Below, piece after piece: positions 6,001 through 49,412 of a stretch of DNA of 64,000 bases; within the stretch, counting starts at the first letter, position 1; each line of letters starts with the position of its first letter. The notes beneath the pieces were generated by a model. The model worked only from the letters and a program-made list of their open reading frames with translations. It searched no databases and was not told where the DNA came from. Origin of the DNA: Ascidia mentula (taxonomy: Eukaryota; Chordata; Ascidiacea; Phlebobranchia; Ascidiidae); contig OX387199.1 in the NCBI GenBank assembly GCA_947561715.1, positions 12,715,001-12,779,000 on the forward strand, read 5' to 3'. The translations under genes were made by a program, and so were the position numbers.

Positions 6001-9000
6001 TTTATTATACAGTGGACAACGCTGATACTCCAGTATTGCGTTTGCGGTTGCACAACGTATGTAACTATGCGCTTTCAACACTTGTCCATTTTGCAGTATA
6101 TGACTTTTCGATAAAAAATATTTTTTTTCAGTACAAGCTTTATTATACAGTGGAAAACGCTGATACTCCAGTACTGAGTTTGTGGTTGCACAACGTATGT
6201 AACTATGCGCTTTCAGCACTTGTCCATTTTGCAGTATATGACTTTTCGATAAAAAATATTTTTTTTCAGTACAAGCTTTATTATACAGTGGAAAACGCTG
6301 ATACACCAGTACTGAGTTTGCGGTTGCACAACGTATGTAACCATGCGATTTCAGCACTTGTCCATTTTGCAGTATACGACTATTCGGTAAAAAATATTTT
6401 TTTTCAGTACAAGCTTTATTATACAGTGGAAAACGCTGATACTCCAGTTTTGCGTTTGCGGTTGCACAACGTATGTAACTATGCGCTTTCAGCACTTGTC
6501 CATTTTGCAGTATATGACTTTTCGATAAAAAATATTTTTTTTCAGTACAAGCTTTATTATACAGTGGAAAACGCTGATACTCCAGTACTGAGTTTGCGGT
6601 TGCACAACGTATGTAACTATGCGATTTCAGCACTTGTCCATCTTGCAGTATATGACTTTTCGATAAAAAATATTTTTTTTCATTACAAGCTTTATTATAC
6701 AGTGGAAAACGCTGGTACTCCAGTATTGCTTTTGCGGTTGCACAACGTATTTAACTATGCGATTTCAGCACTTGTCCATTTTGCAGTATATGACTTTTCG
6801 ATAAAAAATATTTTTTTTCAGTACAAGCTTTATTATACAGTGGAAAACGCTGATACTCCAGTATTGCCTTTGCGGTTGCACAACGTATGTAACTATGCGA
6901 TTTCAGCACTTGTCCATTTTGCAGTATATGACTTTTCGATAAAAAATATTTTTTTTCAGTACAAGCTTTATTATACAGTGGAAAACGCTGATACTCCAGT
7001 ATTGCGTTTGCGGTTGCACAACGTATGTAACTATGCGCTTTCAGCACTTGTCCATTTTGCAGTATATGACTTTTCGATAAAAAATATTTTTTTTCAGTAC
7101 AAGCTTTATTATACAGTGGACAACGCTGATACTCCAGTATTGCGTTTGCGGTTGCACAACGTATGTAACTATGCGCTTTCAACACTTGTCCATTTTGCAG
7201 TATATGACTTTTCGATAAAAAATATTTTTTTTCAGTACAAGCTTTATTATACAGTGGAAAACGCTGATACTCCAGTTTTGCGTTTGCGGTTGCACAACGT
7301 ATGTAACTATGCGCTTTCAGCACTTGTCCATTTTGCAGTATATGACTTTTCGATAAAAAATATTTTTTTTCAGTACAAGCTTTATTATACAGTGGAAAAC
7401 GCTGATACTCCAGTACTGAGTTTGCGGTTGCACAACGTATGTAACTATGCGATTTCAGCACTTGTCCATTTTGCAGTATACGACTTTTCGGTAAAAAATA
7501 TTTTTTTTCAGTACAAGCTTTATTATACAGTGGAAAACGCTGGTACTCCAGCATTGCTTTTGCGGTTGCACAACGTATGTAACTATGCGATTTCAGCACT
7601 TGTCCATTTTGCAGTGTATGACTTTTCGACAAAAAATAGTTTTTCTTCTGTACAAGCTTTATTATACAGTGGAAAAGGCTGATACTCCAGTATTGCGTTT
7701 GCGGTTGCACAACGTATGTAACTATGCGATTTCAGCACTTGTCCATTTTGCAGTATATGACTTTTCGATAAAAAATGTTTTTTTTCAGTACAAGCTTTAT
7801 TATACAGTGGAAAACGCTGATACTCCAGTAATGAGTTTGCGGTTGCACAACGTATGTAACTATGCTATTTCAGCACTTGTCCATCTTGCAGTATATGACT
7901 TTTCGATAAAAAATATTTTTTTTCATTACAAGCTTTATTATACAGTGGAAAACGCTGGTACTCCAGTATTGCTTTTGCGGTTGCACAACGTATGTAACTA
8001 TGCGATTTCAGCACTTGTCCATTTTGCAGTATATGACTTTTCGATAAAAAATATTTTTTTTCAGTACAAGCTTTATTATACAGTGGAAAACGCTGATACT
8101 CCAGTATTGCGTTTGCGGTTGCACAACGTATGTAACTATGCGATTTCAGCACTTGTCCATTTTGCAGTATATGACTTTTCGATAAAAAATATTTTTTTTC
8201 AGTACAAGCTTTATTATACAGTGGAAAACGCTGATACTCCAGTATTGCGTTTGCGGTTGCACAACGTATGTAACTATGCGCTTTCAGCACTTGTCCATTT
8301 TGCAGTACATGACTTTTCGATAAAAAATATTTTTTTTCAGTACAAGCTTTATTATACAGTGGAAAACGCTGATACTCCAGTATTGCGTTTGCGGTTGCAC
8401 AACGTATGTAACTATGCGCTTTCAGCACTTGTCCATTTTGCAGTATATGACTTTTCGATAAAAAATATTTTTTTTCAGTACAAGCTTTATTATACAGTGG
8501 AAAACGCTGATACTCCAGTACTGAGTTTGCGGTTGCACAACGTATGTAACCATGCGATTTCAGCACTTGTCCATTTTGCAGTATATGACTTTTCGATAAA
8601 AAATATTTTTTTTCAGTACAAGCTTTATTATACATTGGAAAACGCTGATACTCCAGTACTGAGTTTGCGGTTGCACAACGTATGTAACCATGCGATTTCA
8701 GCACTTGTCCGTTTTGCAGTGTACGACTTTTCGTTAAAAAATATTTTTTTTCAGTACAAGCTTTATTATACAGTGGAAAACGCTGATACTCCAGAACTGA
8801 GTTTGCGGTTGCACAACGTATGTAACTGTGCGCTTTCAGCACTTGTCCATTTTGCAGTATATGACTTTTCGATAAAAAATATTTTTTTTCAGTACAAGCT
8901 TTATTATACAGTGGAAAACGCTGATACTCCAGTTTTGCGTTTGCGGTTGCACAACGTATGTAACTATGCGCTTTCAGCACTTGTCCATTTTGCAGTATAT

Positions 9001-22600: not shown

Positions 22601-23838
22601 ATTGCTTTTGCGGTTGCACAACGTATGTAACTGTGCGATTTTAGCACATGTCCATTTTGCAGTATATGACTTTTCGATAAAAAATATTTTTTTTCAGTAC
22701 AAGCTTTATTATACAGTGGAAAACGCTGGTACTCCAGTATTGCTTTTGCGGTTGCACAACGTATGTAACTATGCGATATCAGCACTTGTCCATTTTGCAG
22801 TATATGACTTTTCGATAGAAAATATTTTTTTTCAGTACAAGCTTTATTATACAGTGGAAAACGCTGGTACTCCAGTATTGCTTTTGCGGTTGCACAAAGT
22901 ATGTAACTATGCGATTTCAGCACTTGTCCATTTTGCAGTATATGACTTTTCGATAAAAAATATTTTTTTTCAGTACAAGCTTTATTATACAGTGGAAAAC
23001 GCTGATACTCCAGTACTGAGTTTGCGGTTGCACAACGTATGCAACTGTGCGATTTCAGCACTTGTCCATTTTGCAGTATATGACTTTTCGATAAAAAATA
23101 TTTTTTTTCAGTACAAGCTTTATTATACAGTGGAAAACGCTGGTACTCCAGAATTGCTTTTGCGGTTGCACAACGTATGTAACTATGCGATTTCAGCACT
23201 TGTCCATTTTGCAGTATATGACTTTTCGTGAAAAAATATTTTTTTTCAGTACAAGCTTTATTATACAGTGGAAAACACTGGTACTCCAGTACTGAGTTTG
23301 CGGTTGCACAACGTATGTAACTATGCGATTTCAGCACTTGTCCATTTTGCAGTATATGAATTTTCGATAAAAAATATTTTTTTTCAGTACAAGCTTTATT
23401 ATACAGTGGAAAACGCTGATACTCCAGTACTGAGTTTGCGGTTGCACAACGTATGTAACCATGCGATTTCAGCACTTGTCCATTTTGAAGTATACGACTT
23501 TTCGGTAAAAAATATATTTTATTCAGTACAAGCTTTATTATACAGTGGAAAACGCTGATACTCCAGTATTGCGTTTGCGGTTGCACAACGTATGTAACTA
23601 TGCGCTTTCAGCACTTGTCCATTTTGCAGTATATGACTTTTCGATAAAAAATATTTTTTTTCAGTACAAGCTTTATTATACAGTGGAAAACGCTGATACT
23701 CCAGTACTGAGTTTGCGGTTGCACAACGTATGTAACCATGCGATTTCAGTACTTGTCCATTTTGCAGTATACGACTTTTCGGTAAAAAATATTTTTTTTC
23801 AGTACAAGCTTTATTATACAGTGGAAAACGCTGATACT
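19680..23838. repeat. Satellite domain with subfamily B monomers mixed with A
   Basis: From about 19,680 the monomers show a linked set of changes: GCTGGTACTCC or GTTGGTACTCC, TATTGCTTTTGCGG, CACAAAGTATG, GCACATGTCC, and TCGTGAAAAAAT or a TATATTTTTTCAG variant of the A/T block. A-type monomers return between 21,180 and 23,838. The stretch corresponds monomer by monomer to about 44,101-48,258, at a constant shift of 24,421 bp (18,365 bp once the transposon and the duplicated CT are removed). It is therefore a higher-order block also present in the right array. Its last monomer is cut by the transposon at 23,838. Confidence 0.8.
23837..23838. other. Left target-site duplication (CT)
   Basis: The satellite reads GATACT up to 23,838 and the element starts with CACTG at 23,839. 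After the element the satellite resumes with CTCCAGTACTAAG at 29,893. Uninterrupted monomers read GATACTCCAG, so CT is present twice. A 2-bp duplication is within the 2-3 bp range known for CACTA elements. Confidence 0.85.
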
Positions 23839-23851
23839 CACTGTAAAATTT
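23839..23851 (+). repeat. Left terminal inverted repeat of the CACTA element
   Basis: CACTGTAAAATTT pairs with the reverse complement of the right end, CACTGTAAATTT, with one extra A. Nine bases (CACTGTAAA) are identical without a gap. The following subterminal sequence is not a longer perfect inverted repeat. Confidence 0.88.
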
Positions 23852-23859
23852 GGAGGTTG

Positions 23860-24160
23860 TAATAACCCACCTCGGGGTGGAAATTTGTGAAAAATGGTGG
23901 TAAATTCCACCATTTTGTGGATAAAGGTGGAAATAAAACTCCTATGTGTGGAATTTTCCACCATCAACAAAAGCATGTGATTTATGGCGTGGAAATTTCC
24001 ACCCTCTGATCCTGAAAACGTGGAGAAAGCCACCCCACCCCAAGTCATAGAGTGGAATACTCCACCTTATGGTGGTCAAGGTGGAAATTTCCACCCTCTG
24101 GCAGAAAACATGATATTTTCAGCGTGGAATTTCACACCATTTAAACGTGGAGAATAACAC
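23860..24160. promoter_or_regulatory. Left subterminal repeat region of the transposon
   Basis: Dense copies of GTGGAAA or GTGGAA and their complement TTCCACC lie in both orientations, often as palindromes: GGTGGTAAATTCCACC at 23,896-23,911, GTGGAAATTTCCACC at 23,989-24,003, GTGGAATACTCCACC at 24,052-24,066, and the perfect 16-bp palindrome GGTGGAAATTTCCACC at 24,080-24,095. Further half-copies lie near 23,876, 23,926, 23,948, 24,020, 24,124 and 24,146. In En/Spm of maize, subterminal motif arrays are bound by the element's own protein and are needed for excision; by analogy these are the likely transposase or accessory-protein sites here. The binding role is inferred. Confidence 0.8.
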
Positions 24161-24765
24161 CAATACTTATACGACATTAATATTTAAGTGATATTCATTT
24201 GTTGAATTTAATTACCACAAATGATTTCAATTGATTACCACATTCCAATGTCAAGGTGTTTATGTGCTGTGTCGTGTGTATGAAACGTCGCTACACAGTG
24301 AGAAATTGAATTTGGCGGACAAATGCTAAACATATGTCGGTGAATTTACAACCAGAAAACCGGTTACAACTAACAAATCCAGTGAAATTGCGATGGCGTT
24401 ATTAGCGCACTCGCAATGCCACTGCGCTGTTCGGTCCTTTGAAGTAAGCGCGCCAACAACGTCTTCAAGTTAAGACGACGCTCCGATTGGTTAATATTGG
24501 AAGGAGGTCATAACTCAATAATGAGCGAACAATAGGCATAGTTTTGGCGGGGTTTCAGCACAGCAGGTCTTCAAACCGGGTAGCGGGAGGGGAAAAGGAG
24601 CTGTCTCGTTAGTCTGGTGATGGATCGCATTCTTCTCAGTTTATAGTAGGATTGGATTTGTTGAGAGTTGAAGTATTTGTGCCAGTATAATGTTCTTAGT
24701 TGGATGGTCTATTTAGTAATATTTTAATATATTTGTAGATATGTAGCTTATACAGTATAGAAACA
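24161..24765 (+). promoter_or_regulatory. Presumed promoter and 5' leader of the transposon genes
   Basis: There is no open frame of note. The part from about 24,361 to 24,600 is richer in G+C and CpG than anything else in the window. It carries two inverted CCAAT boxes (ATTGG at 24,486-24,490 and 24,496-24,500), a TTTTGGCGGGG at about 24,542, and a 6-bp inverted repeat CGTCTT...AAGACG (24,460-24,477). I see no convincing TATA box. The last 60 bases have several AG-ending pyrimidine-poor sites (for example TTTGTAG at about 24,738 and TTATACAG at about 24,754), so a 5' untranslated intron is possible but not shown. The promoter assignment is inferred from composition and position. Confidence 0.5.
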
Positions 24766-27048
24766 ATGGAAATACCGTGTCCTCGTGCTAATTGTATGGT
24801 TAAATGTGAAAAAAGGTTATTGCTTCATCACCTGAAACAGTCTCACTTAGTTAGCAGTTCTTACACGTGCAAAATTAATAACTGTCACTGCACATATTCA
24901 AGCATTAGAAGTTATGAGAAGCACTTGCAAAGAGATCATTCCAATCTAGATTTTTTTGTTGCTGAAGAACCGAATGAAGAAAGTACTCAAGTGTTTTGTA
25001 GTTCTGCGGATTTTGAAATGTTGGAATATGGTAATCCTGGGCAGGATTTTGAATGTAAACTTGCGAAGTTTTGTTTGAAATTAAAAGAGAAATATGTTCT
25101 TTCAAATTCCACTTACATGAATATAATGGATGATACAATAGGATTGTTTTCTTCTTTTCATTCAAATATATTGGGTAAGCTTACCCCAAGGCCTGGAACT
25201 GACATGGATATGGCTTTGTTGGATGAAGAATTTTTGGTAAGAAGTTGGGCTTCTTTAAAATGTAAGAATTATTTTACAAACTACTGCAGAACCCTTGGAC
25301 TGGTGGAATCCATCACTATTCATTTAGATGATAAGTCTTCATTTGAATATATACCTGTGCTTAATACTCTAAAGCAATATTTGAAACATTCAGATGTATG
25401 GGCTTCTATAAAAAAAAATGCCACCACAGAATCAAGAAAAAATGTAGATTTTACAAATGGAATATTGTTCAATGAGCACCCCTATTTTCAGGGTAAAAAA
25501 GATTTGCTTAGACTGCACTTCTATTTCGATGAATTAGAGCTATGCAATCCACTTGGGTCATCAAAGTCCAAAAATAAACTGGCATGTTTTTATTTTTATG
25601 TGGGTAACATAGGTCCAAAGTACTGTTCACAACTGAGGAATATTTTTTTGTCGATATTGGTAAAAGGGGAAACATTAAAATCTTATGGTCTTGATCCAAT
25701 TGTGGCTCCTCTTATTAATGACATTCAGAAACTGGAATTCGAAGGGTTGCTTGTACAACCACATGTATCGGCGCAAATGGACAGTGCTGGGACTCGTGTT
25801 TTTGGGACAATTGCCACAATATCGGCAGACAACCTTGGGGCACATCAACTAGGTGGATTTAGAAGATGCTTTAGCAGTGGGTGTATATGTAGGTTTTGCA
25901 TGTGTTCCCATGCAGATATCAAAACAAAATGCAGAGAAACGGATTTTAAGCTCCGAACACCATCTATCCACAATCAACATGTAGCTGCAGTAAGCATTGA
26001 TGACACACTGGTGTCAGCATATGGAGTGGCAAAAAGTTGTGCTTTTCATATTATTCAGGGGTTTTCACCTGTGACTGCCTTTCCCCCAGATATAATGCAC
26101 GATTGCTTGGAAGGAGTGCTTCCATCTGTCATGCAAGCAATATTTAAACATTTTCAAGATAGTGGTATATGTTCAATTGCATTTGTTAATGAAAGATTGA
26201 AGAAGTTCAAATTTGGAAGATGTGAGAACAAAAATAAGCCACGTGCTCTCCCTGGGAATGTAATAATGCAAAATGGGAAAATATCACTTTCTGCCAGTGA
26301 AACATTATGCTTGTTTAGATATTTGCCTTTCATTATTGGAGATATTGTTCCTTATGGGGATACAGCATGGCATTTATACTCTTTGCTTTCCGAAATTATG
26401 GATATTATTTTGGCTCCAATGACCAGCACGAACATTAGTGATCATTTAAGATGTTTGATTGAAGAATTGTATTTGTTGTTTGCTGCTTTTGCTCCAGACT
26501 TAGTCAAACCCAAACTACATTTTCTCCTTCATTATCCTCGTTTGTTAGAAATTTATGGCCCATTGCGCAATTTATGGTGCATGCGGTTTGAATCTTTTCA
26601 TAGAAAATTAAAGTTAGTGGCCCAAAGATGTAAAAATTTCAAAAATATTTGCATGACAGTTGCGAGTCGCATCCAATCAATGAAGTGCTATGAGCAGTGT
26701 GACATTGCAGGCCTCACTGGAGATGTTGACAGTGTAATAGGAAAACCTATACTTGTAGATGAGCTGCCACATGCATTTTCTAGTTACTTACACACAGAGT
26801 TAGGATTTCAACCCAATGAAACAGCTATCAGTACGAAATGGATCACTGAAAATGGAATAACATATTCTGTAAAAGATGTGTTTGTCTTGGATGTGTTAGA
26901 TGATGTTCCCATGTTTATTCAAATTAAGAACATTGTTGTGTTAAAATCTATAACATACATTTGTGGTTCATTTTTAAAAACTCTTTCTTTTATTTCACAT
27001 TACCATAGTTATGCTGTAATTGAAACAGAGACAATGCTATTTTTTTAA
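24766..27048 (+). CDS. CACTA/EnSpm transposase with N-terminal C2H2 zinc fingers
   Basis: A single-exon 760-codon gene. The enzyme should bind the element ends and carry out DDE-type cut-and-paste in the nucleus. Residues 5-27 (C5, C10, H22, H27) and 35-58 (C35, C40, H53, H58) form two C2H2-like fingers. The catalytic core shows FYFDELELCNPLGSS with D255, SADNLGAHQLGGF with D355, a CRFC pair (C375, C378), the family motif PPDIMHDCLEG (440-450), then HFLLH (H585, H589) and RFESFHR with E609. D-D, a CxxC pair after the second D, and an HxxxH pair 20 residues before the E match the layout shared by CMC transposases and RAG1/Transib. The start is the first ATG after an in-frame TAG at 24,736, with A at -3 and G at +4. 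No frameshift or internal stop is present. I assign the acidic triad from motif context rather than an alignment. Confidence 0.93.
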   Translation: MEIPCPRANCMVKCEKRLLLHHLKQSHLVSSSYTCKINNCHCTYSSIRSYEKHLQRDHSNLDFFVAEEPNEESTQVFCSSADFEMLEYGNPGQDFECKLAKFCLKLKEKYVLSNSTYMNIMDDTIGLFSSFHSNILGKLTPRPGTDMDMALLDEEFLVRSWASLKCKNYFTNYCRTLGLVESITIHLDDKSSFEYIPVLNTLKQYLKHSDVWASIKKNATTESRKNVDFTNGILFNEHPYFQGKKDLLRLHFYFDELELCNPLGSSKSKNKLACFYFYVGNIGPKYCSQLRNIFLSILVKGETLKSYGLDPIVAPLINDIQKLEFEGLLVQPHVSAQMDSAGTRVFGTIATISADNLGAHQLGGFRRCFSSGCICRFCMCSHADIKTKCRETDFKLRTPSIHNQHVAAVSIDDTLVSAYGVAKSCAFHIIQGFSPVTAFPPDIMHDCLEGVLPSVMQAIFKHFQDSGICSIAFVNERLKKFKFGRCENKNKPRALPGNVIMQNGKISLSASETLCLFRYLPFIIGDIVPYGDTAWHLYSLLSEIMDIILAPMTSTNISDHLRCLIEELYLLFAAFAPDLVKPKLHFLLHYPRLLEIYGPLRNLWCMRFESFHRKLKLVAQRCKNFKNICMTVASRIQSMKCYEQCDIAGLTGDVDSVIGKPILVDELPHAFSSYLHTELGFQPNETAISTKWITENGITYSVKDVFVLDVLDDVPMFIQIKNIVVLKSITYICGSFLKTLSFISHYHSYAVIETETMLFF

Positions 27049-27311
27049 ACCTGGGATGGAGTTGTGTGGACACCCCCATGATTTATATAAATGTGATGAT
27101 AAACAGATGGTTAGACTACAATACAGAATTTTTTTGTAACAGACCACAGAAATCATTGTTGATAGACTGGCCTGGCACATGCCTTTATGTACATACATTG
27201 TTAATTGTATTAGTATGATTTTGCTATAGTACTCATTGATCATGTCAATTGACCTGTATTTTGTGTGTTTCAATCCGAATTTAACCATTTTTTTAAGAAT
27301 TTAACAGGAAC
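27049..27311 (+). other. Spacer between the two transposon genes with a likely splice acceptor
   Basis: These 263 bases hold no open frame that looks real and no exact AATAAA, so the transposase transcript has no obvious poly(A) signal here. The spacer ends in a T-rich tract followed by TTTAACAG (acceptor AG at 27,306-27,307), only four bases before the ATG of the second gene. This suggests that the second gene's first coding exon is joined to an upstream leader exon, possibly one shared with the transposase. The donor partner is not identified. Confidence 0.5.
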
Positions 27312-29505
27312 ATGAGTTGTCAATACCATATTAGCTGCAATGATAGGAAACAAGTTTTGAAATGTGAAAAAAGTGAAATTATTCAAAAAATCAAATGCAC
27401 ATTTGATGTGGCTAATTTTCGTTTGCAACAATGGAATGAAGACTTTCAGGATTGGGAGGACATTGATGTGCCTGAAAATTTGCCAGACAAGACCAAACTG
27501 CTTGTTCTCCCTACAGGTAAATAATTAAATATTAAAATATAATAAAAATTAAAAAAATTAACCTGGTTTGCTTTTTTAAAGATGTATGTTCGTCCAGTTC
27601 TGTGGCCAGCACTGTGCCTTTAAGTTCTGAGGAAGATGTTGCAGCAAGTATATATATTTATTGCAGATAATATTCTTACTATTTTCTTAAATCTAACAAC
27701 TTTGACCCAGACAAACCTGTAGATGAACCAGTGGCCACATGTAGTAACACCGATTGGATTGTTGGCTACAAACTGCCCGCCCTACCTGTTATGGTGCGAC
27801 AGGCTATTCATGATTCTAATGGCAGACTTGGTTCTTCAGCTAGAAGACAAGTTTGTCAGATATTATTTCATTCAATGTCTGCTCATACACTGTAAGCTGA
27901 CAAGCACATTTTTTTGGGTTATTAGGTAATACTGATCACAAATATCCATTGCTGTTTTTCATAAAAAGATATCCCACACACCTGGAGTATCAGCATGTGA
28001 TCATGGAATTGCTGAAACAGTTTCCTGAGCTAAAGGACCAGAATTCCAAAAACCCTGCTGTATGTGTCCAAAAAACTGTATGTGTGTGTATAAAACCACT
28101 TTCATGATTTTGTAACAGGGTACATGGATTGAAAGCATTCGTCAAAAATTTAGAGATGCACGAAGACCAATGACAACCAACGAAATGGTGATAAAAATGA
28201 AGAACAAATTTGGGCACAAACGAAAGAGATCATCACAAGAGCTCAAAGATGACATCATTCCAGCAAAACGCCAGTGTGCCCAATTTGATAAGGTTTTTCA
28301 GTTTAAATGTATAGAAACATATATATATATATTATCTCTTTAATAGATGTTCAATATCTACTCTATAGCAGCCATTAACATATATGTAACACCATATTCT
28401 TTGAATGTAGGACAGTCTGGAAGACGACCACAGCATAGAAATGCACATCAAACATATGGCTAAAGAGTGTCGAAAAAATGTAAAAAACATGGAGTCAATT
28501 TTGGATAGAATGGGAAGAACTTACACATTTCGAAGAAATGAAGTCCGTGAGGGAACCTTGACCGTGGAGAGCCTAATTGAAAAATACCCAGCTTTGCAAT
28601 TTCCTGATGTGGTGAGTATTCCATGAGATAATTAATGCCATATGAGATTATTATGCTTGGTTTTAAAAATGGTGGTAAATGTAATGTTGTTTTTATCACT
28701 GGTTTAACCACAATATTTCAACTTTCTAATATTTTGTCAGGTGTTTGGTGAGGCTCAAAGAATTTTCAACCAAGATTTAAGAGAAAATCTTAAAAGTATA
28801 TCATCTGGCTGTATCAAAAAATTGAACCAAAAATTAGAAAAAAAAATAAAATTGGCTCCAAAGAAGATAATTCAGCTATTAAAAGGAAAAGGTATGCATC
28901 CAAAGATTTTGCGAAGTAAATATTATGTCATTTACTGTGTGGTCTGTACTAGTAACGCTTTCTGTTGTGGTCTATTAATAACTCATTTCCCATTTTCAGC
29001 CATTATTAATCAGTTAATAAACACCATTTGTATAATGTTAGTATTAAAAGAAAGTATGTAGTATGTAAGTAATAATATGTATGTTTATAAATTCAATGTT
29101 TTTAAGGTTCTGCTGAAGTCCTCTGTTTTATTCCTGTTTTGTTTGGTACCAATCAGTTAAATCAGTTCATACAATACAGAGAAGAGGTATGTAATGCTTA
29201 ATGGACAGCAAAAATATATTGTTTTGAGTTTGTATTGATTAATGCTCTTTTAGGATGAAGAGGTGGATACACCATATCCCTGTATGGTTTTAACTGGGAC
29301 AACAATATCCATTTATGTACAAAAATGTTGGATGTGCAACTGTGATTGTTTTGAGGATGCAATTGTCATACTGATTGCTGCATATTGGATTTTTGATATC
29401 CAATTTCCACAAGTGCTTAACAATACTTTCCAGTTGTTAAGCTATCTTTTGAAGATCCCAACCGGCATTAATATATCAGTTCAGCGTGTAATCAATTGGC
29501 TCTAA
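27312..29505 (+). CDS. Second transposon gene, nine exons, SAMD3-like accessory protein
   Basis: I join exons 27,312-27,516, 27,582-27,647, 27,711-27,891, 27,969-28,059, 28,119-28,292, 28,411-28,611, 28,741-28,891, 29,107-29,186 and 29,254-29,505. All eight introns are short (59-215 bp) and GT-AG, and the 1,401 joined bases stay in frame: 466 codons plus stop. Visible landmarks are an N-terminal 68-residue module, LPALPVMVRQAI (112-123), LYPTHLEY (151-158), GTWIESIRQKFRDARRP (182-198), a basic HKRKR stretch (214-218) that could be a nuclear signal, a helical MAKECRKNVKNMESIL segment in exon 6, and a hydrophobic C-terminal part in exon 9. From memory, this order resembles the uncharacterised 'sterile alpha motif domain-containing protein 3-like' proteins common in fish and invertebrates. 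A role in binding the subterminal repeats, like maize TNPA, is inference. Exon 2 is the least certain. Confidence 0.8.
28319..28332. repeat. Short (AT)7 microsatellite in an intron
   Basis: A run of seven AT dinucleotides lies in the intron between exons 5 and 6 of the second transposon gene. It is too short to mean much, but it would be a polymorphic marker between copies of the element. Confidence 0.8.
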
Positions 29506-29689
29506 GTTGAAGTGCTTTCCTTTTTGTGTACTGTATCCGTGCATGGTGTATATTTTTACGTTTCACCATTCTGTTTTCCTTGGTTCTTTTTTTGTCATGT
29601 CATTATTGAGACTTGACCCAGTACGCCTATCTGTTTATATATGGCCCTGCATTGTCTCAATAAAAAACCATGACGTATTTTTGTTGTGG
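29506..29689 (+). other. 3' untranslated region of the second transposon gene
   Basis: Follows the TAA stop at 29,503-29,505. There is no further exon-like open frame of interest. It holds the only good AATAAA in the 3' part of the element and leads directly into the right subterminal repeats, so the transcript should end before or within them. Confidence 0.6.
29659..29664 (+). terminator. Poly(A) signal AATAAA
   Basis: An exact AATAAA lies 154 bases after the stop codon of the second gene, in CTCAATAAAAAACC. A G/T-rich stretch (TTTTTGTTGTGGGTGG) follows about 15 bases downstream, as expected of a cleavage region. It probably ends the second gene's transcript and may also serve the transposase. 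Confidence 0.65.
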
Positions 29690-29880
29690 GTGGAGAATAA
29701 CATGCTTGAAAAGAGGTGGAAATTCACACCCTACGGTACACACTTTAAAGGTGGAAAGTAGTCACTCTAGGGGTGGAAAGCTATAGGGTGGTATTTTCCA
29801 CGCTGTATTTTAGGGTGGTCAGTTCCACCTTTTAGGGACCACGGTTTTAGGTGGTAACTACCACCTAAAGGGGTGGATTT
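29690..29880. promoter_or_regulatory. Right subterminal repeat region of the transposon
   Basis: The same motifs as at the left end occur in both orientations: GTGGAGAATAACA near 29,689, AGGTGGAAATTCACACC near 29,715, GGTGGAAAGTAG near 29,750, GGGTGGAAAG at 29,771-29,780, GGGTGGTATTTTCCACG near 29,786-29,802, GGTGGTCAGTTCCACC near 29,814, and the near-palindrome GGTGGTAACTACCACC at 29,850-29,865. Shared subterminal motifs at both ends support both ends belonging to the same element and mark the likely protein-binding sites. Confidence 0.8.
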
Positions 29881-29892
29881 AAATTTACAGTG
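29881..29892 (-). repeat. Right terminal inverted repeat of the CACTA element
   Basis: AAATTTACAGTG is the reverse complement of CACTGTAAATTT and pairs with the left end with one base gap. The next two bases are the CT of the target duplication. Confidence 0.88.
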
Positions 29893-29894
29893 CT
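29893..29894. other. Right target-site duplication (CT)
   Basis: The satellite resumes as CTCCAGTACTAAGTTTGCGG immediately after the element, repeating the CT that precedes it at 23,837-23,838. The uninterrupted paralogue at 35,831 has this CT once. Confidence 0.85.
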
Positions 29895-32800: not shown

Positions 32801-35800
32801 TTGCGTTTGCGGTTGCACAAAGTATGTAACTATGCGATTTCAGCACTTGTCCATTTTGCAGTATATGACTTTTCGACAAAAAATAGTTTTTTTTCTGTAC
32901 AAGCTTTATTATACAGTGGAAAACGCAGATACTCCAGTAATGAGTTTGCGGTTGCACAACGTATGTAACTATGCGATTTCAGCACTTGTCCATCTTGCAG
33001 TATATGACTTTTCGATAAAAAATATTTTTTTTCAGTACAAGCTTTATTATTCAGTGGAAAACGCTGGTACTCCAGTATTGCTTTTGCGGTTGCACAAAGT
33101 ATGTAACTATGCGATTTCAGCACTTGTCCATTTTGCAGTATATGACTTTTCGTGAAAAAATATTTTTTTTCAGTACAAGCTTTATTATACAGTGGAAAAC
33201 GCTGATACTCCAGTACTGAGTTTGCGGTTGCACAACGTATGCAACTGTGCGATTTCAGCACTTGTCCATTTTGCAGTATATGACTTTTCGATAAAAAATA
33301 TTTTTTTTCAGTACAAGCTTTATTATACAGTGGAAAACACTGGTACTCCAGTATTGCTTTTGCGGTTGCCCAACGTATGTAACTATGCAATTTCAGCACT
33401 TGTCCATTTTGCAGTATATGACTTTTCGTGACAAAATATTTTTTTTCAGTACAAGCTTTATTATGCAGTGGGAAACGCTGGTACTCCAGTATTGCTTTTG
33501 CGGTTGCACAACGTATGTAACTATGCGATTTCAGCACATGTCCATTTTGCAGTATATGACTTTTCGATAAAAAATATTTTTTTTCAGTACAAGCTTTATT
33601 GTACAGTGGAAAACGCTGGTACTCCAGTATTGCTTTTGCGGTTGCACAACGTATGTAACTATGCAATTTCAGCACTTGTCCATTTTGCAGTATATGACTT
33701 TTCGTGAAAAAATATTTTTTTTCAGCACAAGCTTTATTATACAGTGGAAAACGCTGGTACTCCAGTATTGCTTTTGCGGTTGCACAACGTATGTAACTAT
33801 GCGATTTCAGCACATGTCCATTTTGCAGTATATGACTTTTCGATAAAAAATATTTTTTTTCAGTACAAGCTTTATTGTACAGTGGAAAACGCTGGTACTC
33901 CAGTATTGCTTTTGCGGTTGCACAACGTATGTAACTATGCGATTTCAGCACTTGTCCATTTTGCAGTATATGACTTTTCGATAAAAAATATTTTTTTTCA
34001 GCACAAGCTTTATTATACAGTGGAAAACGTTGGTACTCCAGTATTGCTTTTGCGGTTGCACAACGTATGTAACTATGCGATTTCAGCACATGTTCATTTT
34101 GCAGTATATGACTTTTCGATAAAAAATATATTTTTTCAGTACAAGCTTTATTATACAGTGGAAAACGATGATACTCCAGTTTTGCGTTTGCGGTTGCACA
34201 ACGTATGTAACTATGCGCTTTCAGCACTTGTCCATTTTGCAGTATATGACTTTTCGATAAAAAATATTTTTTTTCAGCACAAGCTTTATTATACAGTGGA
34301 AAACGTTGGTACTCCAGTATTGCTTTTGCGGTTGCACAACGTATGTAACTATGCGATTTCAGCACATGTTTATTTTGCAGTATATGACTTTTCGATAAAA
34401 AATATATTTTTTCAGTACAAGCTTTATTATACAGTGGAAAACGCTGGTACTCCAGTATTGCTTTTGCGGTTGCACAACGTATGTAACTGTGCAATTTCAG
34501 CACTTGTCCATTTTGCAGTATATGACTTTTCGTGAAAAAACATTTTTTTTCAGTACAAGCTTTATGATACATTGGAAAACGCTGGTACTCCAGTATTGCT
34601 TTTGCGGTTGCACAACGTATGTAACTGTGCGATTTTAGCACATGTCCATTTTGCAGTATATGACTTTTCGATAAAAAATATTTTTTTTCAGTACAAGCTT
34701 TATTATACAGTGGAAAACGCTGGTACTCCAGTATTGCTTTTGCGGTTGCACAACGTATGTAACTATGCGATATCAGCACTTGTCCATTTTGCAGTATATG
34801 ACTTTTCGATAGAAAATATTTTTTTTCAGTACAAGCTTTATTATACAGTGGAAAACGCTGGTACTCCAGTATTGCTTTTGCGGTTGCACAAAGTATGTAA
34901 CTATGCGATTTCAGCACTTGTCCATTTTGCAGTATATGACTTTTCGATAAAAAATATTTTTTTTCAGTACAAGCTTTATTATACAGTGGAAAACGCTGAT
35001 ACTCCAGTACTGAGTTTGCGGTTGCACAACGTATGCAACTGTGCGATTTCAGCACTTGTCCATTTTGCAGTATATGACTTTTCGATAAAAAATATTTTTT
35101 TTCAGTACAAGCTTTATTATACAGTGGAAAACGCTGGTACTCCAGAATTGCTTTTGCGGTTGCACAACGTATGTAACTATGCGATTTCAGCACTTGTCCA
35201 TTTTGCAGTATATGACTTTTCGTGAAAAAATATTTTTTTTCAGTACAAGCTTTATTATACAGTGGAAAACACTGGTACTCCAGTACTGAGTTTGCGGTTG
35301 CACAACGTATGTAACTATGCGATTTCAGCACTTGTCCATTTTGCAGTATATGAATTTTCGATAAAAAATATTTTTTTTCAGTACAAGCTTTATTATACAG
35401 TGGAAAACGCTGATACTCCAGTACTGAGTTTGCGGTTGCACAACGTATGTAACCATGCGATTTCAGCACTTGTCCATTTTGAAGTATACGACTTTTCGGT
35501 AAAAAATATATTTTATTCAGTACAAGCTTTATTATACAGTGGAAAACGCTGATACTCCAGTATTGCGTTTGCGGTTGCACAACGTATGTAACTATGCGCT
35601 TTCAGCACTTGTCCATTTTGCAGTATATGACTTTTCGATAAAAAATATTTTTTTTCAGTACAAGCTTTATTATACAGTGGAAAACGCTGATACTCCAGTA
35701 CTGAGTTTGCGGTTGCACAACGTATGTAACCATGCGATTTCAGTACTTGTCCATTTTGCAGTATACGACTTTTCGGTAAAAAATATTTTTTTTCAGTACA

Positions 35801-38800
35801 AGCTTTATTATACAGTGGAAAACGCTGATACTCCAGTACTAAGTTTGCGGTTGCACAACGTATGTAACTATGCGCTTTCAGCACTTGTCCATTTTGCAGT
35901 ATATGACTTTTCGATAAAAAATATTTTTTTTCAGTACAAGCTTTATTATACAGTGGAAAACGCTGATACTCCAGTACTGAGTTTGCGGTTGCACAACGTA
36001 TGTAACCATGTGATTTCAGCACTTGTCCATTTTGCAGTATACGACTTTTCGGTAAAAAATATATTTTTTTCAGTACAAGCTTTATTATACAGTGGAAAAC
36101 GATGATACTCCAGTTTTGCGTTTGCGGTTGCACAACGTATGTAACTATGCGCTTTCAGCACTTGTCCATTTTGCAGTATATGACTTTTCGATAAAAAAAT
36201 TTTTTTTTCTGTACAAGCTTTATTATACCGTGGAAAACGCTGATACTCCAGTACTGAGTTTGCGGTTGCACAACGTATGTAACCATGTGATTTCAGCACT
36301 TGTCCATTTTGCAGTATACGACTTTTCGGTAAAAAATATATTTTTTTCAGTACAAGCTTTATTATACAGTGGAAAACGCTGGTACTCCAGTATTGCTTTT
36401 GCGGTTGCACAAAGTATGTAACTATGCGATTTCAGCACTTGTCCATTTTGCAGTATATGACTTTTCGATAAAAAATATTTTTTTTCAGCACAAGCTTTAT
36501 TATACAGTGGAAAACGTTGGTACTCCAGTATTGCTTTTGCGGTTGCACAACGTATGTAACTATGCGATTTCGGCACATGTTCATTTTGCAGTATATGACT
36601 TTTCGATAAAAAATATATTTTTTCAGTACAAGCTTTATTATACAGTGGAAAACGCTGGTACTCCAGTATTGCTTTTGCGGTTGCACAACGTATGTAACTG
36701 TGCAATTTCAGCACTTGTCCATTTTGCAGTATATGACTTTTCGTGAAAAAATATTTTTTTTCAGTACAAGCTTTATTATACATTGGAAAACGCTGGTACT
36801 CCAGTATTGCTTTTGCGGTTGCACAACGTATGTAACTGTGCGATTTCAGCACATGTCCATTTTGCAGTATATGACTTTTCGATAAAAAATATTTTTTTTC
36901 AGTACAAGCTTTATTATACAGTGGAAAACGCTGGTACTCCAGTATTGCTTTTGCGGTTGCACAACGTATGTAACTATGCGATATCAGCATTTGTCCATTT
37001 TGCAGTATATGACTTTTCGATAGAAAATATTTTTTTTCAGTACAAGCTTTATTATACAGTGGAAAACGCTGGTACTCCAGTATTGCTTTTGCGGTTGCAC
37101 AAAGTATGTAACTATGCGATTTCAGCACTTGTCCATTTTGCAGTATATGACTTTTCGATAAAAAATATTTGTTTTCAGTACAAGCTTTATTATACAGTGG
37201 AAAACGCTGATACTCCAGTACTGAGTTTGCGGTTGCACAACGTATGCAACTGTGCGATTTCAGCACTTGTCCATTTTGCAGTATATGACTTTTCGATAAA
37301 AAATATTTTTTTTCAGTACAAGCTTTATTATACAGTGGAAAACGCTGGTACTCCAGAATTGCTTTTGCGGTTGCACAACGTATGTAACTATGCGATTTCA
37401 GCACTTGTCCATTTTGCAGTATATGACTTTTCGTGAAAAAATATTTTTTTTCAGTACAAGCTTTATTATACAGTGGAAAACACTGGTACTCCAGTATTGC
37501 TTTTGCGGTTGCCCAACGTATGTAACTATGCAATTTCAGCACTTGTCCATTTTGCAGTATATGACTTTTCGATAAAAAATATTTTTTTTCAGTACAAGCT
37601 TTATTATACATTGGAAAACGCTGGTACTCCAGTATTGCTTTTGCGGTTGCACAACGTATGTAACTGTGCGATTTCAGCACATGTCCATTTTGCAGTATAT
37701 GACTTTTCGATAAAAAATATTTTTTTTCAGTACAAGCTTTATTATACAGTGGAAAACGCTGGTACTCCAGTATTGCTTTTGCGGTTGCACAACGTATGTA
37801 AATATGCGATATCAGCACTTGTCCATTTTGCAGTATATGACTTTTCGATAAAAAATATTTTTTTTCAGTACAAGCTTTATTATACAGTGGAAAACGCTGG
37901 TACTCCAGTATTGCTTTTGCGGTTGCACAAAGTATGTAACTATGCGATTTCAGCACTTGTCCATTTTGCAGTATATGACTTTTCGATAAAAAATATATTT
38001 TTTCAGTACAAGCTTTATTATACAGTGGAAAACGTTGGTATTCCAGTATTGCTTTTGCGGTTGCACAAAGTATGTAACTATGCGATTTCAGCACATGTCC
38101 ATTTTGCAGTATATGACTTTTCGATAAAAAATATTTTTTTTCAGTACAAGCTTTATTGTACAGTGGAAAACGCTGGTACTCCAGAATTGCTTTTGCGGTT
38201 GCACAACGTATGTAACTATGCGATTTCAGCACTTGTCCATTTTGCAGTATATGACTTTTCGTGAAAAAATATTTTTTTTCAGTACAAGCTTTATTATACA
38301 GTGGAAAACACTGGTACTCCAGTATTGCTTTTGCGGTTGCCCAACGTATGTAACTATGCAATTTCAGCACTTGTCCATTTTGCAGTATATGACTTTTCGT
38401 GACAAAATATTTTTTTTCAGTACGAGCTTTATTATGCAGTGGAAAACGCTGGTACTCCAGTATTGCTTTTGCGGTTGCACAACGTATGTAACTATGCGAT
38501 TTCAGCACATGTCCATTTTGCAGTATATGACTTTTCGATAAAAAATATTTTTTTTCAGTACAAGCTTTATTGTACAGTGGAAAACGCTGGTACTCCAGTA
38601 TTGCTTTTGCGGTTGCACAACGTATGTAACTATGCAATTTCAGCACTTGTCCATTTTGCAGTATATGACTTTTCGATAAAAAATATTTTTTTTCATTACA
38701 AGATTTATTATACAGTGGAAAACGCTGATACTCCAGTATTGCGTTTGCGGTTGCACAAAGTATGTAACTATGCGATTTCAGCACTTGTCCATTTTGCAGT

Positions 38801-39800
38801 ATATGACTTTTCGACAAAAAATAGTTTTTTTTCTGTACAAGCTTTATTATACAGTGGAAAACGCAGATACTCCAGTAATGAGTTTGCGGTTGCACAACGT
38901 ATGTAACTATGCGATTTCAGCACTTGTCCATCTTGCAGTATATGACTTTTCGATAAAAAATATTTTTTTTCAGTACAAGCTTTATTATTCAGTGGAAAAC
39001 GCTGGTACTCCAGTATTGCTTTTGCGGTTGCACAAAGTATGTAACTATGCGATTTCAGCACTTGTCCATTTTGCAGTATATGACTTTTCGTGAAAAAATA
39101 TTTTTTTTCAGTACAAGCTTTATTATACAGTGGAAAACGCTGATACTCCAGTACTGAGTTTGCGGTTGCACAACGTATGCAACTGTGCGATTTCAGCACT
39201 TGTCCATTTTGCAGTATATGACTTTTCGATAAAAAATATTTTTTTTCAGTACAAGCTTTATTATACAGTGGAAAAGGCTGGTACTCCAGAATTGCTTTTG
39301 CGGTTGCACAACGTATGTAACTATGCGATTTCAGCACTTGTCCATTTTGCAGTATATGACTTTTCGTGAAAAAATATTTTTTTTCAGTACAAGCTTTATT
39401 ATACAGTGGAAAACACTGGTACTCCAGTATTGCTTTTGCGGTTGCCCAACGTATGTAACTATGCAATTTCAGCACTTGTCCATTTTGCAGTATATGACTT
39501 TTCGTGACAAAATATTTTTTTTCAGTACAAGCTTTATTATGCAGTGGGAAACGCTGGTACTCCAGTATTGCTTTTGCGGTTGCACAACGTATGTAACTAT
39601 GCGATTTCAGCACATGTCCATTTTGCAGTATATGACTTTTCGATAAAAAATATTTTTTTTCAGTACAAGCTTTATTGTACAGTGGAAAACGCTGGTACTC
39701 CAGTATTGCTTTTGCGGTTGCACAACGTATGTAACTATGCAATTTCAGCACTTGTCCATTTTGCAGTATATGACTTTTCGTGAAAAAATATTTTTTTTCA
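29893..39800. repeat. Tandemly repeated higher-order block of about 5.94 kb (two copies, the second partial)
   Basis: Sequence from 29,893 recurs from 35,831 at a shift of 5,938 bp (43 monomers plus 4 bases), with the same order of variant monomers and shared private changes, such as TACGAGC at about 32,481 and 38,419. Near 39,270 the second copy gains one extra monomer and the shift becomes 6,076. By about 39,800 the second copy stops matching and instead resembles the block that begins near 20,200. The unit is therefore a mosaic. Confidence 0.75.
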
Positions 39801-44164: not shown

Positions 44165-47100
44165 AGCACATGTCCATTTTGCAGTATATGACTTTTCGAT
44201 AAAAAATATTTTTTTTCAGTACAAGCTTTATTGTACAGTGGAAAACGCTGGTACTCCAGTATTGCTTTTGCGGTTGCCCAACGTATGTAACTATGCAATT
44301 TCAGCACTTGTCCATTTTGCAGTATATGACTTTTCGTGACAAAATATTTTTTTTCAGTACAAGCTTTATTATGCAGTGGAAAACGCTGGTACTCCAGTAT
44401 TGCTTTTGCGGTTGCACAACGTATGTAACTATGCGATTTCAGCACATGTCCATTTTGCAGTATATGACTTTTCGATAAAAAATATTTTTTTTCAGTACAA
44501 GCTTTATTGTACAGTGGAAAACGCTGGTACTCCAGTATTGCTTTTGCGGTTGCACAACGTATGTGACTATGCAATTTCAGCACTTGTCCATTTTGCAGTA
44601 TATGACTTTTCGTGAAAAAATATTTTTTTTCAGTACAAGGTTTATTATACAGTGGAAAACGCTGGTACTCCAGTATTGCTTTTGCGGTTGCACAAAGTAT
44701 GTAACTATGCGATTTCAGCACTTGTCCATTTTGCAGTATGTGACTTTTCGATAAAAAATATTTTTTTTCAGAACAAGCTTTATTATACAGTGGAAAACGT
44801 TGGTACTCCAGTATTGCTTTTGCGGTTGCACAAAGTATGTAACTATGCTATTTCAGCATATGTCGATTTTGCAGTATATGACTTTTCGATAAAAAATATA
44901 TTTTTTCAGTACAAGCTTTATTATACAGTGGAAAACGTTGGTACTCCAGTATTGCTTTTGCGGTTGCACAGAGTATGTAACTATTCGATTTCAGCACATG
45001 TCCATTTTGCAGTATATGACTTTTCGATAAAAAATATATTTTTTCAGTACAAGCTTTATTATACAGTGGAAAACGCTGGTACTCCAGTATTGCTTTTGCG
45101 GTTGCACAACGTATGTAACTGTGCAATTTCAGCACTTGTCCATTTTGCAGTATAAGACTTTTCGTGAAAAAATATTTTTTTTCAGTACAAGCTTTATTAT
45201 ACATTGGAAAACGCTGGTACTCCAGTATTGCTTTTGCGGTTGCACAACGTATGTAACTGTGCGATTTCAGCACATGTCCATTTTGCAGTATATGACTTTT
45301 CGATAAAAAATATTTTTTTTCAGTACAAGCTTTATTATACAGTGGAAAACGCTGGTACTCCAGTATTGCTTTTGCGGTTGCACAACGTATGTAACTATGC
45401 GATATCAGCACTTGTCCATTTTGCAGTATATGACTTTTCGATAGAAAATATTTTTTTTCAGTACAAGCTTTATTATACAGTGGAAAACGCTGGTACTCCA
45501 GTATTGCTTTTGCGGTTGCACAAAGTATGTAACTATGCGATTTCAGCACTTGTCCATTTTGCAGTATATGACTTTTCGATAAAAAATATTTTTTTTCAGT
45601 ACAAGCTTTATTATACAGTGGAAAACGCTGATACTCCAGTACTGAGTTTGCGGTTGCACAACGTATGTAACTATGCGATTTCAGCACTTGTCCATTTTGC
45701 AGTATATGACTTTTCGATAAAAAATATTTTTTTTCAGTACAAGCTTTATTATACAGTGGAAAACGCTGGTACTCCAGAATTGCTTTTGCGGTTGCACAAC
45801 GTATGTAACTATGCGATTTCAGCACTTGTCCATTTTGCAGTATATGACTTTTCGTGAAAAAATATTTTTTTTCAGTACAAGCTTTATTATACAGTGGAAA
45901 ACGCTGATACTCCAGTACTGAGTTTGCGGTTGCACAACGTATGTAACCATGTGATTTCAGCACTTGTCCATTTTGCAGTATATGACTTTTCGATAAAAAA
46001 TATTTTTTTTCAGTACAAGCTTTATTATACAGTGGAAAACGCTGATACTCCAGTACTGAGTTTGCGGTTGCACAACGTATGTAACCATGCGATTTCAGTA
46101 CTTGTCCATTTTGCAGTATACGACTTTTCGATAAAAAATATTTTTTTTCAGTACAAGCTTTATTATACAGTGGAAAACGCTGATACTCCAGTACTGAGTT
46201 TGCGGTTGCACAACGTATGTAACCATGTGATTTCAGCACTTGTCCATTTTGCAGTATACGACTTTTCGGTAAAAAATATATTTTTTTCAGTACAAGCTTT
46301 ATTATACAGTGGAAAACGCTGGTACTCCAGTATTGCTTTTGCGGTTGCACAAAGTATGTAACTATGCGATTTCAGCACTTGTCCATTTTGCAGTATATGA
46401 CTTTTCGATAAAAAATATTTTTTTTCAGCACAAGCTTTATTATACAGTGGAAAACGTTGGTACTCCAGTATTGCTTTTGCGGTTGCACAACGTATGTAAC
46501 TATGCGATTTCAGCACATGTTCATTTTGCAGTATATGACTTTTCGATAAAAAATATATTTTTTCAGTACAAGCTTTATTATACAGTGGAAAACGATGATA
46601 CTCCAGTTTTGCGTTTGCGGTTGCACAACGTATGTAACTATGCGCTTTCAGCACTTGTCCATTTTGCAGTATATGACTTTTCGATAAAAAATATTTTTTT
46701 TCAGCACAAGCTTTATTATACAGTGGAAAACGTTGGTACTCCAGTATTGCTTTTGCGGTTGCACAACGTATGTAACTATGCGATTTCAGCACATGTTTAT
46801 TTTGCAGTATATGACTTTTCGAGAAAAAATATATTTTTTCAGTACAAGCTTTATTATACAGTGGAAAACGCTGGTACTCCAGTATTGCTTTTGCGGTTGC
46901 ACAACGTATGTAACTGTGCAATTTCAGCACTTGTCCATTTTGCAGTATATGACTTTTCGTGAAAAAATATTTTTTTTCAGTACAAGCTTTATTATACATT
47001 GGAAAACGCTTGTACTCCAGTATTGCTTTTGCGGTTGCACAACGTATGTAACTGTGCGATTTTAGCACATGTCCATTTTGCAGTATATGACTTTTCGATA

Positions 47101-49412
47101 AAAAATATTTTTTTTCAGTACAAGCTTTATTATACAGTGGAAAACGCTGGTACTCCAGTATTGCTTTTGCGGTTGCACAACGTATGTAACTATGCGATAT
47201 CAGCACTTGTCCATTTTGCAGTATATGACTTTTCGATAGAAAATATTTTTTTTCAGTACAAGCTTTATTATACAGTGGAAAACGCTGGTACTCCAGTATT
47301 GCTTTTGCGGTTGCACAAAGTATGTAACTATGCGATTTCAGCACTTGTCCATTTTGCAGTATATGACTTTTCGATAAAAAATATTTTTTTTCAGTACAAG
47401 CTTTATTATACAGTGGAAAACGCTGATACTCCAGTACTGAGTTTGCGGTTGCACAACGTATGCAACTGTGCGATTTCAGCACTTGTCCATTTTGCAGTAT
47501 ATGACTTTTCGATAAAAAATATTTTTTTTCAGTACAAGCTTTATTATACAGTGGAAAACGCTGGTACTCCAGAATTGCTTTTGCGGTTGCACAACGTATG
47601 TAACTATGCGATTTCAGCACTTGTCCATTTTGCAGTATATGACTTTTCGTGAAAAAATATTTTTTTTCAGTACAAGCTTTATTATACAGTGGAAAACACT
47701 GGTACTCCAGTACTGAGTTTGCGGTTGCACAACGTATGTAACTATGCGATTTCAGCACTTGTCCATTTTGCAGTATATGAATTTTCGATAAAAAATATTT
47801 TTTTTCAGTACAAGCTTTATTATACAGTGGAAAACGCTGATACTCCAGTACTGAGTTTGCGGTTGCACAACGTATGTAACCATGCGATTTCAGCACTTGT
47901 CCATTTTGAAGTATACGACTTTTCGGTAAAAAATATATTTTATTCAGTACAAGCTTTATTATACAGTGGAAAACGCTGATACTCCAGTATTGCGTTTGCG
48001 GTTGCACAACGTATGTAACTATGCGCTTTCAGCACTTGTCCATTTTGCAGTATATGACTTTTCGATAAAAAATATTTTTTTCAGTACAAGCTTTATTATA
48101 CAGTGGAAAACGCTGATACTCCAGTACTGAGTTTGCGGTTGCACAACGTATGTAACCATGCGATTTCAGTACTTGTCCATTTTGCAGTATACGACTTTTC
48201 GGTAAAAAATATTTTTTTTCAGTACAAGCTTTATTATACAGTGGAAAACGCTGATACTCCAGTACTAAGTTTGCGGTTGCACAACGTATGTAACTATGCG
48301 CTTTCAGCACTTGTCCATTTTGCAGTATATGACTTTTCGATAAAAAATATTTTTTTTCAGTACAAGCTTTATTATACAGTGGAAAACGCTGATACTCCAG
48401 TACTGAGTTTGCGGTTGCACAACGTATGTAACCATGTGATTTCAGCACTTGTCCATTTTGCAGTATACGACTTTTCGGTAAAAAATATATTTTTTTCAGT
48501 ACAAGCTTTATTATACAGTGGAAAACGATGATACTCCAGTTTTGCGTTTGCGGTTGCACAACGTATGTAACTATGCGCTTTCAGCACTTGTCCATTTTGC
48601 AGTATATGACTTTTCGATAAAAAAAATTTTTTTTTCTGTACAAGCTTTATTATACCGTGGAAAACGCTGATACTCCAGTACTGAGTTTGCGGTTGCACAA
48701 CGTATGTAACCATGTGATTTCAGCACTTGTCCATTTTGCACTATACGACTTTTCGGTAAAAAATATATTTTTTTCAGTACAAGCTTTATTATACAGTGGA
48801 AAACGCTGGTACTCCAGTATTGCTTTTGCGGTTGCACAAAGTATGTAACTATGCGATTTCAGCACTTGTCCATTTTGCAGTATATGACTTTTCGTGAAAA
48901 AATATTTTTTTTCAGTACAAGCTTTATTATACATTGGAAAACGCTGGTACTCCAGTATTGCTTTTGCGGTTGCACAACGTATGTAACTGTGCGATTTCAG
49001 CACATGTCCATTTTGCAGTATATGACTTTTCGATAAAAAATATTTTTTTTCAGTACAAGCTTTATTATACAGTGGAAAACGCTGGTACTCCAGTATTGCT
49101 TTTGCGGTTGCACAACGTATGTAACTATGCGATATCAGCACTTGTCCATTTTGCAGTATATGACTTTTCGATAGAAAATATTTTTTTTCAGTACAAGCTT
49201 TATTATACAGTGGAAAACGCTGGTACTCCAGTATTGCTTTTGCGGTTGCACAAAGTATGTAACTATGCGATTTCAGCACTTGTCCATTTTGCAGTATATG
49301 ACTTTTCGATAAAAAATATTTTTTTTCAGTACAAGCTTTATTATACAGTGGAAAACGCTGATACTCCAGTACTGAGTTTGCGGTTGCACAACGTATGCAA
49401 CTGTGCGATTTC
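44165..49412. repeat. 5,248-bp higher-order duplication, copy 1
   Basis: Matches 49,413-54,660 at a shift of 5,248 bp (38 monomers plus 4 bases). Rare variants are shared at the same places, for example CAAGGTTTATT at about 44,637 and 49,885, GTATGTGACTATG at about 44,560 and 49,808, and TATAAGAC at about 45,152 and 50,400. The only difference noticed is one A in an A-tract near 48,622 (one more than near 53,870). The right end is a chimeric monomer at about 49,404-49,417. Confidence 0.85.

Follow-up and report, generated by a model that had tools for sequence, protein, structure and literature searches.

We analysed a 64,000-nucleotide stretch of the Ascidia mentula genome (C52:12715001-12779000, hereafter the window), in which a DNA transposon of the CACTA/EnSpm type, 6,054 bp in length and carrying two genes on the forward strand, occupies positions 23839-29892 within an array of a 138-bp satellite that spans the window (1-64000). 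The element very probably represents a recently mobile CACTA/EnSpm family of the CMC clade; this high confidence concerns the identity of the family and its recent insertion, and not the role of the second gene, open reading frame 2 (ORF2). The terminal inverted repeats (TIRs) are 12 bp long and identical at 11 of 12 bases, the left one (23839-23850, forward strand) being CACTGTAAAATT and the right one (29881-29892, reverse strand) being CACTGTAAATTT when read inwards. Both termini start with CACTG, which is of the CACT(A/G) type, and two relatives in the same genome end in CACTGTAAATC and are flanked by TA duplications. The element is bordered by a 2-bp CT on the left (23837-23838) and on the right (29893-29894), and a single CT stands in an empty counterpart of the same satellite block, indicating that CT is a true target-site duplication. 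Duplications of 2 bp (CT, CA and TG) were detected in three of four family copies, the fourth being without its right end.

The subterminal region is rich in GGTGGAAA / TTTCCACC on the left (23839-24188) and contains GGTGGAA(A) on the right (29543-29892). With both strands counted, GGTGGAAA occurs nine times in these two terminal 350-bp stretches and not at all in the interior, and in 200 dinucleotide shuffles the highest count reached by any 8-mer was six. A preliminary description of this locus, made from the sequence alone, had noted both ends, the CT duplication, both subterminal repeat regions and the satellite setting, and all of these were confirmed. Its assignment of the element to CACTA was also upheld by the ends, the subterminal repeats and the conserved signature residues described below, while the Pfam score itself lies below the cut-off.

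The first gene (24766-27048, forward strand) encodes, in the uninterrupted frame of 760 codons reported earlier, a transposase with N-terminal C2H2 fingers and a DDE core; the protein has 790 residues in three sibling copies. For the alignment of host proteins, one sibling and 11 relatives (two of them nearly identical) were taken from 61 genome matches. The putative catalytic residues D255 (codon 25528-25530), D355 (25828-25830) and E609 (26590-26592), all on the forward strand, were each invariant in 12/12 proteins, as were C375 and C378 of the C(2)C motif and H585 and H589 of the H(3)H motif. The window transposase family therefore shows the order D, D, C(2)C, H(3-4)H, E of the CMC clade. 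In a comparison of an eight-sequence transposase profile with PDB, only zinc fingers matched convincingly, GLI being the best of them (E 3.6e-7, profile positions 2-59), and zf-C2H2 exceeded the Pfam cut-off in one relative. Comparison of a single transposase with PDB by sequence gave chance-level matches only (best E 0.035), and no relatives were confirmed in viral contigs or prokaryote contigs.

The second gene, ORF2 (27312-29505, forward strand), encodes 466 amino acids in nine exons (27312-27516, 27582-27647, 27711-27891, 27969-28059, 28119-28292, 28411-28611, 28741-28891, 29107-29186 and 29254-29505), and an AATAAA read directly from the sequence at 29659-29664 (forward strand) is a possible poly(A) signal on its 3' side. 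All eight introns are of the GT-AG type, and the 466 codons are free of stops once joined. Since the exons had first been picked by eye, the model was tested on relatives by splice-aware alignment. The ORF2 of the C70 relative (225/460 residues identical) has no stop and eight introns, all in the same phases as in the window copy; five of these introns interrupt the identical residue, and the other three are displaced by 1, 3 and 10 residues. That of the relative at 8.14 Mb on C1 (161/438 identical) is likewise free of stops, with seven introns, three of which are identical in place and phase. A further copy of the C70 family, L072 (C1:8930500-8938500), retains no more than roughly the first 60 residues of the transposase but has an open ORF2 (216/460 identical) without stops and with eight introns, six of them identical; parts of both its ends align with the C70 element, and an exact CACTG/CAGTG pair was not found. 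The splice-aware aligner scored 891 on L072 versus 36-53 on three control stretches, namely satellite sequence, L072 read on its reverse strand and the 5' portion of a sibling. Between the C70 relative and L072, the rates of non-synonymous (dN) and synonymous (dS) substitution in ORF2 were 0.040 and 0.122, giving a dN/dS of 0.33 (NG86) or 0.39 (YN00), with 28 synonymous and 40 non-synonymous differing codons; between the window copy and the C70 relative, ORF2 is saturated (dS 2.7). Judged from this one related pair, purifying selection on ORF2 appears supported, as does the gene model. The proposal of a nine-exon gene that joins in frame over eight introns was thus strengthened by the stop-free codons, by the intron positions in relatives and by the selection pattern in the related pair.

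To count ORF2 neighbours of transposase loci, 61 rows of transposase matches were merged by hand into 54 loci, which were divided by a cut set within the interval from 35% to 37% identity, where no locus falls; of the 97 ORF2 rows, 65 entered the count, and another 32 exon rows that belong to the four siblings were left out. An ORF2 match was found downstream on the same strand, at a distance of up to 6.5 kb, at 23 of the 28 transposase loci with at least 37% identity (the family's own four included), and the five nearer loci without such a match are partial transposase matches. None was detected downstream of the 26 loci below 37%, where a diverged ORF2 could escape detection. These 26 loci form a second, distant transposase group, many members of which have open frames of several hundred residues.

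The empty site was identified by joining 2,000 bp from each flank after removal of one CT. The joined sequence matches positions 33834-37830 of the window (99.85% identity in 3,998 aligned columns), and the empty counterpart of the element-bearing block extends over 33893-38831, with its single CT at 35831-35832. In an ungapped comparison, the filled and empty blocks differ at four positions in 4,939 bp. Because this near-identical empty block carries a single CT, the insertion most simply postdates the local duplication that produced the two blocks. The block divergence amounts to about 4e-4 substitutions per site for each of the two blocks. Animal mutation rates are generally 1e-9 to 1e-8 per site and generation, and with these rates the insertion would be at most some 40,000 to 400,000 generations old. 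Gene conversion between the blocks could lead to an underestimate of the age of the duplication, and precise loss of the element from the other block is a less simple alternative to later insertion. Because this copy lies within a higher-order satellite, the divergence of empty blocks nearby sets a bound on its insertion, and this dating is independent of the element's own sequence.

Search of the host genome (195,842,439 bases in 79 contigs) with the transposase protein yielded at least 61 matches, four of them at 99-100%, and a DNA query recovered the same four loci. In this genome COX1 lies on C79, and its 4 AGA and 14 AGG codons stand at positions where glycine yields the well-known COX1 motifs, in keeping with the ascidian mitochondrial code and most likely with a tunicate host. 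The insect marker families 7tm_6 and Chitin_bind_4 had no match in the host, a negative of little weight since the control genomes gave none either. Apart from the window copy, these are three siblings on C1, C67 and C69, each at 99% identity or higher and with different flanks. The C1 sibling (C1:14395442-14401495) is full length, with six mismatches in 6,055 columns against the window copy and CA on both flanks. The C67 sibling, flanked by TG on both sides, retains its full length but is interrupted by an insertion. The C69 sibling lacks its last 13 bases. In the alignment of the four copies, with columns gapped in three of the four rows set aside, private substitutions number three each in the C52 (window), C1 and C67 copies, and are far more numerous in C69. 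The earlier suggestion that the element is young and mobile was therefore borne out by near-identical copies with other flanks, and the other genomic copies are not all highly diverged. Older fragments of the family are present in the genome at 76-95% identity; the family is therefore no brand-new arrival, and has moved again recently. A search for end pairs in older fragments yielded no convincing candidate.

Two of the siblings carry insertions of their own. In the C67 copy, an insertion of about 0.5 kb (approximately 6362-6892 of locus L030) lies in ORF2 intron 5, with ends like CAKGGGCGTATCC and an 8-bp duplication, TATATATA; it resembles a miniature inverted-repeat transposable element (MITE) of the hAT type. 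In the C69 copy, a 515-bp insertion (2685-3199 of locus L031) lies in the 5' region, with CAGGGTTGCCA-type ends and an 8-bp duplication, AGCGGGAG, and is presumably a second hAT-type MITE. In addition, four short matches on C2 between 2.29 and 2.94 Mb (L023 and L025-L027) match the element over its final 110-160 bp alone, and are possibly short non-autonomous derivatives.

The statement in the preliminary description that both genes were without visible damage could not be maintained for the window copy. At 27040-27046 (forward strand), a run of T has one base more than its counterpart in the siblings (T7 versus T6 in 3/3), which shortens the transposase by 30 residues (760 versus 790; the open frame is 769 versus 799 codons), and the tail lost in this way is kept by the nearer relatives. 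In the C70 relative, 17/32 residues of this tail are identical (430/756 for the body), and in six other nearer relatives 11/32, 10/31, 10/31, 14/32, 8/22 and 12/31 (bodies 36-44%). Among the four most distant relatives, the values fall to 8/32, 5/31, 3/22 and none, the last of these sequences being incomplete at this end. The intactness of the window copy is therefore doubtful. It is otherwise well preserved, and full-length versions of the family exist in the siblings.

Two explanations of the longer T-run have to be weighed. If it is a real mutation, the window copy would be a defective, non-autonomous element that moves only with sibling transposase. We consider the probability of this to be slightly short of even: the difference from all three siblings and the alignment of the lost tail in the nearer relatives point to it, while the loss amounts to only 30 of 790 residues and the catalytic residues are retained. 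The other explanation is an error of the assembly in a copy that is in fact intact, which we regard as nearly as apt to be true as false. One-base differences in homopolymers are a common error of long reads, and a second indel private to the window copy, in ORF2 intron 2, is likewise a single T and could have the same origin; the copy is also unbroken elsewhere. Nothing, however, favours error over mutation.

With respect to the superfamily, membership in another lineage of the CMCT clade (Mirage, Chapaev or a Plavaka-like lineage) rather than CACTA/EnSpm is very unlikely. The 2-bp duplication, a weak Plavaka match in one of eight family members and the weak Transposase_21 score would suit such a lineage, but the CACTG ends, the subterminal repeats and the two-gene plan argue for CACTA/EnSpm, and Transposase_21 is the best Pfam match of the window protein, though a weak one (E 0.0017). 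Moreover, animal relatives of CACTA with 2-bp duplications have been published (PMC1636069). A number of observations nevertheless weigh against a recently mobile CACTA/EnSpm family with two working genes. The duplication is 2 bp in length, versus 3 bp in the CACTA elements of plants and fungi. The Transposase_21 score of 18 bits is below the Pfam cut-off of 28.6, and this domain was matched in two of the eight family members, the other six giving no such match at E up to 1. The subterminal 8-mers of two relatives equal, and do not exceed, the shuffle maximum: GGTGGAAA in the C1 relative occurs five times in the ends and once inside (shuffle maximum 5, 95% level 3), and GGATGGAA in the C70 relative four times in the ends and not inside (shuffle maximum 4, 95% level 3). 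In the C71 relative, ORF2 (136/445 identical) contains one stop and has nine introns, three of them matching in place and phase, and the best end pair is without a matching duplication. ORF2 has no credible match in Pfam, where all matches are below the cut-off, or in PDB. Finally, the C69 sibling is damaged (right end lost, frameshift in ORF2, insertion), and the transposase of the window copy is shortened as described above.

The CACTA/EnSpm reading is preferred in spite of these points, and we propose the following course of events. The DDE transposase, guided by its N-terminal zinc fingers and the TIRs, would excise the element and reinsert it with a 2-bp duplication; this cut-and-paste chemistry is what we infer from the invariant D-D-C(2)C-H(3)H-E signature, and the guiding role of the fingers is likewise proposed, while the ends, the duplications, the empty site and the recent sibling copies are observed. 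The spliced ORF2 product may bind the GGTGGAAA subterminal repeats as a TNPA-like partner of the transposase. The window copy would have entered its block of the higher-order satellite once that block had undergone its last local duplication and, being without the conserved C-terminal tail as assembled, may depend on its siblings to move. The element offers a clean case of a recently mobile animal CACTA family, with two-gene relatives in the same genome for comparison.

As regards the role of ORF2, we give about an even chance to a TNPA-like partner that would bind the GGTGGAAA subterminal repeats and be needed together with the transposase, by analogy with plant elements. The subterminal 8-mers found across families fit a conserved binding partner, and the protein that reads them could be ORF2 or the zinc fingers. 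Alternatively, ORF2 might be a passenger, a repressor or a gene derived from the host and not a partner required for transposition, which we think rather unlikely. ORF2 is without a known domain, and L072, from which nearly all of the transposase is deleted, keeps ORF2 open with its eight introns, as a repressor-coding derivative would; against this reading, the position of ORF2 downstream on the same strand at 23/28 nearer transposase loci fits a functional component of the element. A more far-reaching proposal, which we put forward only tentatively, is that ORF2 might encode an accessory subunit not described so far, by which a clade of animal CACTA elements could be defined; it would have kept its eight-intron structure and would bind GGTGGAAA-type repeats, with transposase-less ORF2 copies regulating the family. 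In PDB, a profile of ORF2 had two matches, at E 0.48 and E 0.54, while a query with exon 9 by itself had no match. ORF2 may resemble fish 'SAMD3-like' proteins. No prior description of ORF2 was found in the open-access literature, a search which did not cover Repbase and most subscription papers, and it may well have been described. As a conserved, spliced gene, ORF2 is a candidate animal counterpart of TNPA and the part of the element most worth following.

The nearest described elements are SmTRC1 and the other animal TRC elements (DeMarco 2006, PMC1636069), whose 2-bp duplications were demonstrated by empty paralogous sites and of which relatives were reported in Ciona intestinalis. The window element shares with them an animal CACTA-related transposase and a CXXC motif, as well as the 2-bp duplications, and TRC likewise makes spliced products from its 3' part (PMC1636069). 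The Transposase_21 domain of the TRC elements has a counterpart below the cut-off here. TRC ends begin with CCC and the SmTRC1 TIR is 54 bp (PMC1636069), whereas CACTG ends and a 12-bp TIR were observed here. That study found no detectable conservation of the TRC protein parts beyond Transposase_21 (PMC1636069); in contrast, the second gene here is conserved between families of one genome. The comparison with SmTRC1 is one of described features and not of sequences. Plant En/Spm and Tgmt* resemble the window element in the CACTA-type ends, the subterminal repeats and the combination of a transposase with a second product of many exons, tnpA having 11 exons (PMC2613891). In maize En/Spm, TNPD and TNPA are both required and TNPA binds the subterminal repeats (PMC2613891). 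Unlike here, the Tgmt* duplication is 3 bp, and TNPD and TNPA arise by alternative splicing (PMC2613891), whereas in the window element the two coding regions are set apart from each other; the likeness of ORF2 to TNPA is one of description, not sequence. The CMC/CMCT clade, comprising EnSpm, Mirage, Chapaev and Transib, is characterized by the motifs C(2)C and H(3-4)H, located after the second D and before the last E, by CA..TG termini and by duplications of 2-5 bp (PMC12730594). All of these features are shared by the window element, with no difference from the clade as described there (PMC12730594).

The satellite around the element shows very recent turnover, as higher-order repeats at 19839-58891 contain segments several kb long that are found again with an identity above 99%; for example, 21839-23838 matches both 46260-48258 and 51508-53506 at 99.75%. 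Since 138 bp is a multiple of three, long open frames cross the satellite on both strands, the longest being 1,727 codons (58728-63911, reverse strand), and these are probably a mechanical consequence and not genes. A 25-base satellite probe, allowing up to two mismatches, hit 23,814 forward and 16,069 reverse sites in the whole genome and none as a reversed control, corresponding to about 2.8% of the genome if one site per 138 bp is assumed. On C52, six of six samples from 12.0 to 12.7 Mb were satellite and that at 12.80 Mb was partly so, while samples at 11.0 Mb and from 12.85 Mb onwards were not. This array lies in the middle part of the chromosome, extends over at least 0.8 Mb and may be centromeric. 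A CENP-B-box-like pattern with up to one mismatch gave 0 matches in the window versus 2.41 expected by chance.

The preliminary description had also raised the possibility that the satellite sheltered the element from silencing, or exposed it to it. No satellite was found around the three siblings (about 10 kb each) with Tandem Repeats Finder and the satellite probe, the former picking up nothing but a 17-bp repeat within the element and one of 20 bp within the C67 insertion. The chance that at least one of four copies lies in satellite is near 11%; therefore, nothing follows on satellite preference or shelter, and the location of the window copy is unremarkable. Family and satellite adjoin at one further place, where an older family fragment, L036 (C72:10716500-10721500), is separated by about 150 bp from a 927-bp stretch of the 138-bp satellite.

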